A DNA stretch of 59,093 bases from Candidatus Poseidoniia archaeon (GTDB lineage Archaea; Thermoplasmatota; Poseidoniia; MGIII; CG-Epi1): the NCBI GenBank assembly GCA_030748895.1, contig JASMLC010000009.1:1-59093 (forward strand). The letters are read 5' to 3'. The notes under the pieces are model-generated. The model saw only the letters and a list, made by a program, of their open reading frames with translations. It did not search any database and was not told where the DNA came from. A program made the translations under genes and the position numbers. This document shows, one piece after another, positions 25,566 to 59,093 of the stretch. The first letter of the stretch is position 1, and the number at the start of each line of letters is the position of its first letter.

Positions 25566-25638
25566 GCGGGCGTAGTGTAGCCTGGTATCACCGGGGCTTC
25601 CCAAGCCCCTAACCCGGGTTCGAATCCCGGCGCCCGCA
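25566..25638 (+). tRNA. tRNA-Gly (anticodon CCC)
   Basis: A 73-nt cloverleaf. The 7-bp acceptor stem pairs GCGGGCG with CGCCCGC, with discriminator A. The D-arm is closed by GTG/CAC. The anticodon stem GGGGC/GCCCC encloses loop TTCCCAA (anticodon CCC, reading GGG). A 4-nt variable loop precedes the T-arm CCGGG/CCCGG with TTCGAAT. No CCA is encoded and no intron is seen. It is flanked on both sides by strong inverted repeats. Confidence 0.96.
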
Positions 25639-55394: not shown

Positions 55395-55826
55395 CTACAG
55401 GCTCATGGCCAGAATCTGGACTATGTCCGTTAACAGACTCAACCCTGAAGCAGTGCCTGCCACACCCTTGGCCACTCCCTTTCCGTCCGTTTTCTGCAAT
55501 GCCTCCAGTTCATCCTTGTCGAACCAGATGCCATGGCAGCCGCCGCAGATGTCGAGTTGCACCTCTGGTTCAGGGATGCTGGTGAGGTGCATCTGGCCGG
55601 TGCAGTGGGGGCACGCAATGTCGTGTTTGCCGGCTTCCGGCTCGCGTGATAGTTGGCTGGCGAGCTCCTCGACCGATGCGCTATCGGGTGCCAGCCGGGC
55701 CAGTTCCCCCCGGTCCAAGAAGAGCCCTCCGCAATCCTTGCAGTCGTCCACGGTTATCGCGAACGTATCATTGGTGACGCTGCGCGGTTCAAGGCTAGTG
55801 CTACAGCGGGGACACGTGCGCGCCAT
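55395..55826 (-). CDS. Protein with two zf-TFIIB-type zinc ribbons
   Basis: A 143-residue protein with duplicated zinc ribbons: CPRC near residue 5 with CKDCGGLFLDRGEL, and CPHC near 72 with CGGCHGIWFDKDEL. The C-x-C-G-G-x-W/F-x-D-x-x-E-L signature identifies the zf-TFIIB domain. The C-terminus has a short hydrophobic stretch (TASGLSLLTDIVQILAM). Found widely as a metal or nucleic-acid-binding module; function unclear. A GGCTTAAACC element is 25 bp before the ATG. Confidence 0.85.
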   Translation of the reverse strand: MARTCPRCSTSLEPRSVTNDTFAITVDDCKDCGGLFLDRGELARLAPDSASVEELASQLSREPEAGKHDIACPHCTGQMHLTSIPEPEVQLDICGGCHGIWFDKDELEALQKTDGKGVAKGVAGTASGLSLLTDIVQILAMSL

Positions 55827-55874: not shown

Positions 55875-56492
55875 CTACGGCTCCGCCATGAACGCGACAA
55901 ATTCCTCGAGCGACCGCGGCGCGAGCACGTAGTTCTCGCGCCGCTCGGCGCCCATCGTCGAAGACGGACGCGGGCCGTAATCGTGGCCCGGCCAGATGAC
56001 CGCGGAATCCGGGACTTCGGCCAGTACTTCGAAGAGCGAGCGGTGCATCGCACGCGGGTCACTGCCGGGCAGGTCGGTGCGTCCGCACTCGCCCACAAAC
56101 AGCGTGTCGCCCGTGAACAGATTGCCCTCGGCGTGCAGGCAGACGGAATCGCGCGCGTGGCCCGGCGTGTGCAGCACCTCGACCGCGATTTCACCGACGC
56201 GCAACGTGTCACCGTGTTTTAAATATTGATCGACGGTGAATTCCGCCTTACGGTGCGCCGCCACTTTCGCGCCGGTCAGCTCGACCGTGTGGTCGTTGCC
56301 GTTGACGTGGTCGTGGTGGCCGTGGGTGTTGAGCACCCACTCGACGCGGTATCCCTGCGCTTCGGCGCGGGCGACCAGTTTTTCTGGCTCGAAGCAGGGG
56401 TCGACCAGCGCCGCGACGCGCGTTTCCTCGCAGCCGAGCAGGTAGGCGAAGTTCGCCATCGGCCCGACCCGAAGCTGCTCTACGATGGCCAC
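55875..56492 (-). CDS. ETHE1/glyoxalase II-like MBL hydrolase
   Basis: A 205-residue metallo-beta-lactamase-fold protein with THGHHDHVNG (HxHxDH motif, about residues 55-64), HTPGHARDSVC, FTGDTLFVGECGRTDLPGSD and WPGHDYG. The GRTD and GHDY segments are typical of the ETHE1/persulfide dioxygenase branch rather than true glyoxalase II, which has a C-terminal domain lacking here. The GTG start overlaps the cysS end by 13 bp. It ends the four-gene operon, pointing to cysteine or sulfide metabolism. Confidence 0.85.
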   Translation of the reverse strand: MAIVEQLRVGPMANFAYLLGCEETRVAALVDPCFEPEKLVARAEAQGYRVEWVLNTHGHHDHVNGNDHTVELTGAKVAAHRKAEFTVDQYLKHGDTLRVGEIAVEVLHTPGHARDSVCLHAEGNLFTGDTLFVGECGRTDLPGSDPRAMHRSLFEVLAEVPDSAVIWPGHDYGPRPSSTMGAERRENYVLAPRSLEEFVAFMAEP

Positions 56493-57766
56493 TGGAACAC
56501 CCCCAGCGCGCGCTGGAAAATGCGGTAGAGCGCCGCGACTGGTTCCAGCCCGCTACCGTCGAGCCGCTCGCGTGCGATAGCGTCAAGCTCGCGCAGCGCC
56601 GCGACCGCCCGCGGCGAGCCCAGGTCGTCGTCCATGCCCGCCTCGAGCCGCGCCAGCAGTTGCGCCGTGGCGGGGTCGCCGCGTGCCAGCTGCGCATCTC
56701 CTGTTGAAGCCGCGACTGTGGCATCGCCTCCGGCGCCTGCCGCAGCGCCATGCGGTTTTTCGTCGTCGCCGCTCGCCGTCAGCACTTCGACAGCAGTCCA
56801 GCCCAGCGCTTCGCCCTCGGCGCAGGCGGCCTTCAGCGCCGCTTCGCTGAATGGGGTGAAGTCGCGGTAGTGGTATTGCAGCAGGTAGAACCGCAGCGCC
56901 GCGGGCGGGCAGTCGTCGAAGACGGCTGTCAGCGAGAGCCGCTCGCCGCGCGATTTCGATAATTTCCCGTCCGCGTCCTCCATCAGTCCGTTGTGCATCC
57001 ACATGCCGCAGTATTCGCCCAAGCCCAGCGCGTCGGCCAGCAGCAGCTCGCTCTCGTGGTGCGGATACGCCAAATCCGCGCCACCGAAATGGATGTCGAG
57101 CGGCAGCCCGGGGTCGTGCGCCGCCATCAGCGTGCACTCCAGGTGCCAGCCCGGTCGCCCCGGAGCAATGTCATCCGGCGACCACGTCCGGCCGCCCTCG
57201 AGCGGCGGCCCCCAGAGCATGAAATCGAACGGCCCCCGCTTAGGCCCCGAGTCGACCGCGTCGGCCGGCTCGCAGAGCGCCGCCTCGATTCCGGTTCCGA
57301 GCAGTGCGCCGTGCTGCTCCGGCGCGACCGAGAGCCAGATGCCGCCCTCGCTCTCGTAGGCCCGACCGTCGGCGAGCAGCCGCGCCGCCAGCGCGCCAAT
57401 CTCGGGGGCGACCTCGGAAGCGCGCGGCAGCGCCTGCGGCCGCAGGTTCCCCAGCGCGTCCATCTGCGCCAGGAATTCCGCCTCGTAGCGCGTGGTCAGT
57501 TCCTGCTCGGGCAGCCCATCGCGCGCCGCCGCCTGCGCAGTCTCGTCGGCGACGTCGGTAAAATTCTGCGCGTGGCGCACCGCGTAGCCGCGGTATTCGA
57601 GCCAGCGGCGCAGCACATCTACGGCAACGTAACTCTTGGCATGCCCCAGATGCGCCGGCGCGTAGACCGTCGGCCCGCAGGCGTAGAGCCGCACCGGGTC
57701 GCCGGCCGGCGCGAAGCGCTCCTTGCAACGGGTGGCGCTGTTGTAGAGCCGCAGCCCGCGGCTCAT
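56480..57766 (-). CDS. cysS: Cysteinyl-tRNA synthetase
   Basis: A 428-residue class I synthetase. Zinc ligand C30 in YACGPTVY, HIGH-type HLGH at 39-42, a second zinc site in GWHLECTLMAAHD with FGGADLAYPHHESE, and the KMSKS-type KLSKSRGE near residue 270. A low-complexity insertion (KPHGAAAGAGGDATVAAST) lies before the C-terminal helical domain. The family is usually about 450-500 residues, so it is slightly short. The ATG overlaps the GNAT stop (ATGA). Other CysRS proteins are known to make cysteine persulfide. Confidence 0.95.
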   Translation of the reverse strand: MSRGLRLYNSATRCKERFAPAGDPVRLYACGPTVYAPAHLGHAKSYVAVDVLRRWLEYRGYAVRHAQNFTDVADETAQAAARDGLPEQELTTRYEAEFLAQMDALGNLRPQALPRASEVAPEIGALAARLLADGRAYESEGGIWLSVAPEQHGALLGTGIEAALCEPADAVDSGPKRGPFDFMLWGPPLEGGRTWSPDDIAPGRPGWHLECTLMAAHDPGLPLDIHFGGADLAYPHHESELLLADALGLGEYCGMWMHNGLMEDADGKLSKSRGERLSLTAVFDDCPPAALRFYLLQYHYRDFTPFSEAALKAACAEGEALGWTAVEVLTASGDDEKPHGAAAGAGGDATVAASTGDAQLARGDPATAQLLARLEAGMDDDLGSPRAVAALRELDAIARERLDGSGLEPVAALYRIFQRALGVFQWPS

Positions 57767-58611
57767 CCCTTGTCGCCTCCAGCGCGTGCGCAGATATTCG
57801 CCTCGTCGCTCCAGCTACCGCCGCGCACCATCGCCAGTGTGTAGTCGACCGCTTCCCAGCCTTGGGCCTCGAGCAGGCTGGTGACGCGGAAGTTGGGCGA
57901 CGGGACGATGATTTCCAGCGTCGCCTCGCGGGGGAGCGCCGCGACCGCCGCCTCGAGCAGCGTTTGCCAGCCGCGGCAGCCCTGTTCGACCACCCACGGT
58001 CCCAGCTCGAACAGAGCATCCTCGCCCTTCGCCAGGATGTAACTGCCGTCCAGCGCGAGCGCCGCCTTCGGGACCGCCGTCGCGAGCGCCTCGAGCAGCG
58101 CGGAGCGGTCAGCGCCGAATTGCGCCGCGTCGACCGCCAGTACCTCCTCCCAGCGGTCACGCGCCGGCGCGACAGCTACGCTGCCGACGTCGAACGGCGC
58201 CAGCGCGTGCATCTCCGGTGAGAGCCGGAAGCGGGTCGACATCCCCTCCGCCTCGAAACCGAGTGCGCGATAGAAGCCGGCGGTCGGCATCAGTGCGTGC
58301 ACCCGCACCGCGCGGCACCCCGCCAGCCGCTCCAGTGCCGCCTCGAGCAGCGCGATCCCCACGCCGCAGCCGCGCTGCTCGGGCGCGACGACGACGTTGC
58401 CGACGGTCCCGAGCGCGCCATAGTCGTGCGCGGTGCAGACGCCGGCGGCCACGCCGTTGACTTCGGCGCCCAGCGCGACGCCGAGCGCGTGCAGCCGCTC
58501 CCAGTCGCGCGCCGAGTTGCCCCACCCCTCGCCGTCGGTCAGCGCCCGCGCCAGCTCCAGGTCGCCGGCGGCCATGGGGTGGACCGCGACCGGCGCGGCC
58601 GCGTCAGCCAT
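57763..58611 (-). CDS. Tandem GNAT N-acetyltransferase
   Basis: A 282-residue protein. The N-terminal GNAT domain holds the acetyl-CoA site VVVAPEQRGCGVGIALLEAAL (about residues 73-90) and a FYRALGFEAEG strand. The C-terminal half looks like a second, degenerate GNAT fold (SYILAKGEDALFELGPW, LLEAQGWEAVDYTLAM). Substrate unknown, often an amine or small molecule. It overlaps both the upstream Cys-rich gene (8 bp) and cysS. Confidence 0.85.
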   Translation of the reverse strand: MADAAAPVAVHPMAAGDLELARALTDGEGWGNSARDWERLHALGVALGAEVNGVAAGVCTAHDYGALGTVGNVVVAPEQRGCGVGIALLEAALERLAGCRAVRVHALMPTAGFYRALGFEAEGMSTRFRLSPEMHALAPFDVGSVAVAPARDRWEEVLAVDAAQFGADRSALLEALATAVPKAALALDGSYILAKGEDALFELGPWVVEQGCRGWQTLLEAAVAALPREATLEIIVPSPNFRVTSLLEAQGWEAVDYTLAMVRGGSWSDEANICARAGGDKG

Positions 58612-58762
58612 CGCCCACCGCCCCTTCCTCCACGCCTTCGTCGCACTCCTGCTGGCCGAAGGTCAGGAAGCGCTGCTCCTCGCGCCGCAATTTGAGCCGG
58701 CAGCTGCCATAACCGTAGTCCTCGCCGCCATACCAGTGGGGGCAGTCCTTGCACCGCAACAC
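58604..58762 (-). CDS. 52-residue four-cysteine protein
   Basis: A short gene with start GTG 58762. LRCKDCPHWYGGEDYGYGSC then FLTFGQQECDEG place four cysteines (C4, C7, C20, C37), consistent with a small metal-binding fold. A TATA element at 58808-58814 predicts a start near 58785. Its stop overlaps the GNAT ATG by 8 bp. It is the first gene of the Cys-rich - GNAT - cysS - MBL operon. Confidence 0.65.
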   Translation of the reverse strand: MLRCKDCPHWYGGEDYGYGSCRLKLRREEQRFLTFGQQECDEGVEEGAVGDG

Positions 58763-58837: not shown

Positions 58838-59093
58838 ATGCGACAGGGGGCTGCGCTGCTGATGGCACTGCTGATGGTGCTGACCGGACTGGGCACCGGC
58901 TCCGTCGCGCCCGCCCCGGCGGAGCAGGCGCCAGCGCAGTTCGCGGCGGCCGAAGGCGGCAACGACACGCTGAACCGGACCAACACGTTCCCATTCGACG
59001 TGCTCTTCGACGATTACCACGAATATTACGAAGTGGTCTCCGCATTGCAGCGGTTCGCCAACGACTTTCCCGGGATTGTTGAATTCTACACGC
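58838..59093 (+). CDS. Secreted M14 carboxypeptidase-like protein, 5' part
   Basis: The reading frame is open to the window end (85 codons seen). An N-terminal signal peptide (MRQGAALLMALLMVLTGLG) is followed by an Ala/Pro-rich stretch. The segment DDYHEYYEVVSALQRFANDF then PGIVEFYT matches the start of M14 zinc carboxypeptidase domains (YHxYxE.. and P.IVxxxxxG). The catalytic residues lie beyond the window, so the assignment is provisional. Confidence 0.65.
   Translation, partial: MRQGAALLMALLMVLTGLGTGSVAPAPAEQAPAQFAAAEGGNDTLNRTNTFPFDVLFDDYHEYYEVVSALQRFANDFPGIVEFYT

Follow-up and report, generated by a model that had tools for sequence, protein, structure and literature searches.

A short CysRS paralog that travels with a four-cysteine protein in Thermoplasmatota: candidate genes for a cysteine-based thiol

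A locus of four overlapping genes

The DNA analysed here, referred to as the window, is a stretch of 59,093 nucleotides that makes up one contig in full (C9) of a 1.4-Mb Candidatus Poseidoniia archaeon genome with a completeness of 97%. Four genes overlap on its minus strand, encoding a small four-cysteine protein (C4), a tandem-GNAT acyltransferase (GNAT), a CysRS-like protein (CysL) and a protein of the metallo-beta-lactamase fold (MBL), and the overlaps at the C4/GNAT, GNAT/CysL and CysL/MBL junctions are 8, 4 and 13 nt, respectively (Table 1). On the coordinates, the overlap and the families of these genes, the ORF positions and Pfam matches agreed with the initial annotation. Genomes (G), contigs (C), loci (L) and families (f) are cited below by our own numbers, the window's genome being G000.

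A TFIIB-type zinc-ribbon gene lies just downstream of MBL; it is also present in G002 and G004, and was not seen in G005. Upstream, a divergent gene with a signal-peptide-like start is kept opposite C4 in loci of the window's family. The sole RNA gene found in the window was a tRNA-Gly.

Table 1. Features of the locus and its surroundings in the window
Feature	Position	Strand	Description
C4	58604-58762	minus	52 aa, GTG start, four cysteines; no Pfam family
GNAT	57763-58611	minus	tandem-GNAT acyltransferase, 282 aa; Pfam GNAT 1.7e-10
CysL (CysRS-like)	56480-57766	minus	short CysRS paralog; Pfam tRNA-synt_1e 1.2e-70
MBL	55875-56492	minus	ETHE1/glyoxalase-II-like metallo-beta-lactamase fold, 205 aa; Pfam Lactamase_B 8.5e-20
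TFIIB-type zinc-ribbon gene	55395-55826	minus	
Divergent gene	58838-59092	plus	signal-peptide-like start
tRNA-Gly (CCC)	25566-25638	plus	

CysL is a short paralog of CysRS

Two CysRS genes were found in the window's genome, the full-length one on another contig (G000:C17) and 44% identical to the window copy. Against the TIGR00435 profile, the C17 copy scored 489.9 bits and the window CysL 252.5 bits, below the cut-off of 340, although some other short copies (L102, L104, L150 and L154) passed it at 343-388 bits. Because the full-length CysRS sits elsewhere in the genome, we rejected a housekeeping cysS operon. Thus, of the "cysS operon" that had been proposed, the four overlapping genes are real, but the synthetase gene among them is a second, short CysRS paralog. 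Among 60 relatives, CysRS matches of two kinds occurred in most genomes of the window's family; genomes of its sister families, f2 and f3, had one where they matched at all.

CysL ends after the DALR region, at 394-428 aa in complete copies from the window's family. Most short copies are about 390-420 aa long (449 in L109), as compared to 455-500 aa for canonical CysRS. In a 65-row tree, a branch with 100/99 support split all long copies from all short copies; eight f6 rows of this tree had first been labelled X, and three of these grouped with the long copies, the other five with short ones. When E. coli CysRS and 8qhp were used as the outgroup, 18 short copies formed one clade (support 99/99, recovered in 100% of 200 bootstrap trees), with the caveat that the branches are long and attraction may contribute to it. 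Because short copies from many families make up this clade, a recent duplication within the window's family was rejected. As judged from these trees, CysL is an ancient CysRS paralog, common to many Thermoplasmatota families.

All 30 short copies aligned keep C28, H37, G39, H40, W205, C209, D229, H234, K266 and S270, and E238 is kept in 23 of them. In contrast, a C-terminal set of residues (R/D/R/L/D) that is kept in 35 canonical rows is gapped in nearly all 30 short copies. By this alignment, CysL retains the zinc/cysteine pocket together with HIGH and KMSKS, whereas it no longer has the anticodon-binding part. A separate observation concerns the full-length Thermoplasmatota enzymes, in 14 of 35 of which Asp replaces the zinc ligand Cys209. 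We found no paper on this CysRS paralog in a literature search that mostly did not reach subscription journals.

Gene order and genome-level co-occurrence

Loci of the window's family have C4, GNAT and CysL side by side and in this order wherever the contig allows, with tmk and a small membrane-type gene adjoining them. The order recurs outside the family in f15, f21, f23 and f4, and also at L164, L181, L195 and L214, while C4-GNAT is found without an adjacent CysL in f45, f53 and f7 and a GNAT-CysL pair in f50. Since both order and homology are kept in the window's family and in others, the C4-GNAT-CysL arrangement is more than chance. A named collection yielded 150 matches to the C4 pattern, 137 of them confirmed. 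Among the best 80 of these 137, the records were titled Thermoplasmata, Thermoplasmatota, Euryarchaeota, Methanomassiliicoccales or Sysuiplasma, except for three naming another group; GNAT adjoined C4 in 18 of the best 80, and CysL did so too in 5 of those 18.

The position of MBL is less constant. The initial annotation had proposed conservation of the four-gene order as a check, and although C4-GNAT-CysL is widely kept, MBL adjoins CysL only in four genomes of the window's genus (G000, G002, G004 and G005) and in one further copy (L045); it was not adjacent in the remaining loci compared within the window's family set. At L238, CysL, C4, GNAT and MBL share one 6.8-kb stretch, with an MBL, 48% identical to that of the window's family, lying ~1.3 kb from CysL. 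No common neighbour was found in the MBL neighbourhoods outside the window's family.

To compare whole genomes, we searched the phylum for C4, which matched in 50 of 389 genomes (46 strong matches, 4 weak and partial). The 46 genomes with a strong match represent 12 families, and CysL is present in 11 of them. At least two CysRS matches were present in 40 of the 46, versus at most 2 of the 343 genomes without C4; the former count includes 14 f6 genomes whose two matches were counted without being sorted individually into short and long. The six C4 genomes with one CysRS comprise G002, G010 and G011, which hold a short copy, G355, which holds a short copy according to the tree, and the two f7 genomes G063 and G074, in which the only CysRS is long and CysL is absent.

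Among the C4-less genomes, 29 of 343 had initially appeared to carry at least two CysRS matches. On re-examination, 21 were weak matches to other synthetases, 5 were split genes and 1 was a contig-end fragment, which leaves at most two, a duplicate in G148 and an uncertain case in G282. The G282 match (G282:C1:115762-116862; E 2e-61) is CysRS-like and lies in a genome with 8% contamination. Co-occurrence with C4 is clustered phylogenetically, and a phylogenetically independent contrast gave only 4 supported pairs, all of them concordant (p 0.125).

MBL was searched in 43 genomes, only 10 of which were controls. At E <= 1e-40, a line set after the table was seen, it was present in none of the 10 controls, whereas C4 genomes had it in 21 of 22 cases outside the window's family and in 7 of 11 within. 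The one outside genome missing the line, G092, had an MBL of only 3e-33, and a line at 1e-30 was passed by 2 of 10 controls. Close MBL orthologs therefore accompany C4 throughout the phylum, also in genomes where the two are unlinked, which supports the earlier proposal that the genes, MBL included, form one functional set. Taken at the level of homology, these comparisons show that CysL travels with C4, with the tandem GNAT in most lineages, and with the ETHE1/GloII-like MBL.

The partner proteins

The C4 protein has the pattern C-x2-C-x2-WYG ... GxC-xxK ... T ... CDE, with a cysteine spacing of C-x2-C-x13-C-x18-C. Residues C4, C7, W10, Y11, G12, G19, C21, K24, T34, C40, D41 and E42 are shared by all 23 rows of the alignment, and the C-terminus after CDE varies in length and sequence. 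Its structure model (pLDDT 50.9) was too poor to use. C4 is the constant partner: it occurs with CysL minus a GNAT of this family in f6 and f46, and with GNAT minus CysL in f7. Because it persists where GNAT or CysL drops out, C4 may be a scaffold, a metal carrier or an acceptor. At four f6 loci (L094, L096, L098 and L100) C4 adjoins neither GNAT nor CysL; in several f6 loci it directly follows a FolD-like gene and is convergent with a gene that we call radical-SAM-like by reading only.

The GNAT model (pLDDT 91.3) contains two GNAT domains, with the RxxGxG acyl-CoA motif in the first. Its closest structural match was 3ddd, a putative acetyltransferase of Pyrococcus (Z 28.2); next came N-myristoyltransferases and further tandem GNATs, at Z 17 to 19.5. 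All 28 of 28 rows aligned end in Gly (G282). The C-terminal carboxylate serves NMT and Eis as a catalytic base, and this precedent, together with the invariant last Gly, suggests by analogy that the C-terminal carboxylate of GNAT might have the same role.

MBL carries the metal-binding HxHxDH motif, as THGHHDH. Its best PDB matches were ETHE1/persulfide-dioxygenase-type chains, namely 4ysb (6.6e-33), which we take to be a persulfide dioxygenase, and 4chl (ETHE1; 2.3e-27), in keeping with the "ETHE1-like" label that it had been given from its sequence.

Alternative explanations for the gene set

Several explanations other than a small-molecule thiol can be considered. It is possible, though unlikely in our estimation, that C4 is itself the acceptor, a small, ribosomally synthesised carrier or scaffold protein to which CysL would add cysteine, for example at the invariant Lys24, and which GNAT would acylate. 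LysW and the peptide-scaffold (PEARL) pathways are precedents for such carriers. C4 is the element common to lineages in which one or the other enzyme is absent, its gene is the first of the operon, and C4 ranks among the best-conserved parts of the set, Lys24 being kept in 23 of 23 rows. However, the C-terminus, which is the attachment site in LysW-type amino-group carrier proteins, is variable in C4, the four cysteines would also fit simple metal binding, and the low-confidence model does not help the case.

Somewhat less probable again is that CysL serves as an alternative cysteinyl-tRNA synthetase and charges a special tRNA whose anticodon it does not read, as CysRS* does with SelC* in Desulfobacterales. 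PMC9437257 describes a CysRS* that has no anticodon-binding domain and charges SelC*, a loss shared by CysL, and the catalytic core of CysL is intact. Against this, no tRNA-Sec scored above the Rfam RF01852 cut-off in 13 of 13 genomes (9 from the window's family), a threshold that a divergent tRNA could escape. No tRNA-Cys was found at the 24 loci scanned, three of which had an ordinary tRNA (Thr, Ser, His), and CysL is linked to GNAT and C4 rather than to translation genes.

We consider it improbable that the locus is a mixed operon of independently acting parts, namely a degenerate CysRS, a housekeeping acyltransferase and a zinc protein. The separate loss of partners in f6, f46 and f7 and the mostly unlinked MBL fit such a view, but the order recurs in distant families and co-occurrence at the genome level is tight.

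Least probable is the reading of the initial annotation, in which CysL makes cysteine persulfide and MBL oxidises it: MBL is ETHE1-like and co-occurs with C4, and KMSKS is kept in CysL, but the Lys73/Lys76 motif is missing and persulfide synthesis by CysL is therefore unsupported. In E. coli CysRS, K73A and K76A (in KIIK) each strongly cut persulfide synthesis, according to PMC5660078; the window CysL has neither equivalent, though KLSK is kept, K73 or K76 occurs in only 16 of 30 short copies as against K73 in 29 of 35 canonical rows, and the housekeeping CysRS would be the better candidate. What stands of that reading is a single set with MBL in it, and what is left unsupported is the production of persulfide by the CysRS-like gene.

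A proposed cysteine-based thiol pathway

We propose, with a probability of roughly 0.4, that the four genes together direct the synthesis of a cysteine-based thiol conjugate, other than glutathione, along lines like those of mycothiol. CysL would activate cysteine as Cys-AMP and pass it to a putative non-tRNA amine acceptor, as MshC does. GNAT would then acylate the amine left free on the cysteine, for which its own C-terminal carboxylate may be the base. MBL might be a hydrolase that depends on the thiol or its persulfide, with persulfide or thioester adducts of the resulting thiol as its substrate. C4 would bind metal or serve as a scaffold or carrier. Elsewhere, glutathione is the thiol co-substrate of ETHE1. 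A GCS2 gamma-glutamylcysteine ligase was found in none of 21 relatives (0/21), with controls such as Haloferax volcanii positive.

More tentative is the fuller form of this proposal, in which Thermoplasmatota would use a CysRS-derived ligase and a tandem GNAT to make either a cysteinyl-conjugate thiol or a C4 carrier bearing cysteine, the product being a glutathione/mycothiol equivalent and the co-substrate of MBL, and the ligase a separate archaeal recruitment. Several findings count against a thiol pathway: CysL is absent from both f7 genomes, GNAT is missing from f46 and, in 10 of 10 f6 genomes, either missing or weak, and MBL is unlinked in most lineages. The lack of PIG-L in most other carriers and the small number of independent pairs in the contrast also weigh against it.

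A possible source of the acceptor was seen in the window's family. Of 45 genomes, 16 had PIG-L; all of these belong to this family, the window's genome among them, and none to f2 or f3. In the window's genome, an ATP-grasp gene, a GT4 glycosyltransferase and a PIG-L deacetylase lie in a row (L090:6616-9585, on G000:C7); the row also occurs in L091, and in L092 the GT4 is paired with PIG-L. Such a pair could supply an amino sugar in this family. The best thiol-family scores of the L090 cluster, 51 bits for BshB1 and 35.6 for MshA, were far below cut-off. PIG-L was present in only 2 of 23 other C4 carriers and absent from 21; an MshA/MshB route as a general feature was rejected, and the pair is therefore at most a family-specific acceptor source.

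For the question of which small thiol archaea use, the gene set offers named, testable enzymes in one phylum. Section 14 of a 2020 review (PMC7278568) reports that neither mycothiol nor its genes were found in archaea, and no archaeal MshC homologs. If the proposal is true, it would also assign a role to a four-cysteine protein that is strongly conserved yet carries no annotation.

Comparison with known systems

C4 resembles LysW in being a small four-cysteine protein adjoining an ATP-dependent amino-acid-activating enzyme, but it differs in having no conserved C-terminal attachment tail or residue. Similarly, CysL is like CysRS* in being a CysRS paralog without the anticodon domain, whereas CysL genomes differ from CysRS*/SelC* systems in having no SelC-like tRNA over the cut-off. 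MBL appears similar to ETHE1 persulfide dioxygenase and glyoxalase II in its nearest PDB chains and its HxHxDH motif; unlike them, it falls below all NCBIfam cut-offs, and its genome has no GCS2-type glutathione ligase.

GNAT shares with MshD, 3ddd, Eis and NMT a fold of two GNAT domains, for which amine N-acylation is the expected chemistry. It is unlike MshD in scoring 14.6 bits against TIGR03448, where the cut-off is 163.1, which counts against a mycothiol-type reading; MshD (1ozp) ranked 46 in the Foldseek comparison with the GNAT model (TMq 0.54), was not among the 50 matches listed in a second structure comparison, and is matched far less well than 3ddd.

The same holds for CysL and MshC, the cysteine:GlcN-inositol ligase of mycothiol synthesis. 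The window CysL scored 181.9 bits against TIGR03447 (MshC), below the cut-off of 485.1, and six other short copies scanned scored 190-269 bits, which again counts against a mycothiol-type reading. CysL is set apart from MshC by this profile score, by being archaeal and by most carriers having no PIG-L (MshB-type) gene. As a separate observation, a CysRS homolog was found on 624 plasmid records, 503 of them from Klebsiella; a search for MshC relatives on plasmids returned plasmid cysS genes, mostly from Klebsiella, with no MshC among the matches listed. In contrast to its profile score, the make-up of CysL is like that of MshC: both are CysRS paralogs of ~400 aa that have no anticodon-binding domain, keep the cysteine pocket and have a tandem GNAT as partner. 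PMC2922099 raises the question of whether MshC stands alone among synthetases that work as ligases. The CysL family is a candidate for a second MshC-like case within CysRS and, if the proposed pathway is correct, would join MshC as a second amide ligase derived from CysRS.
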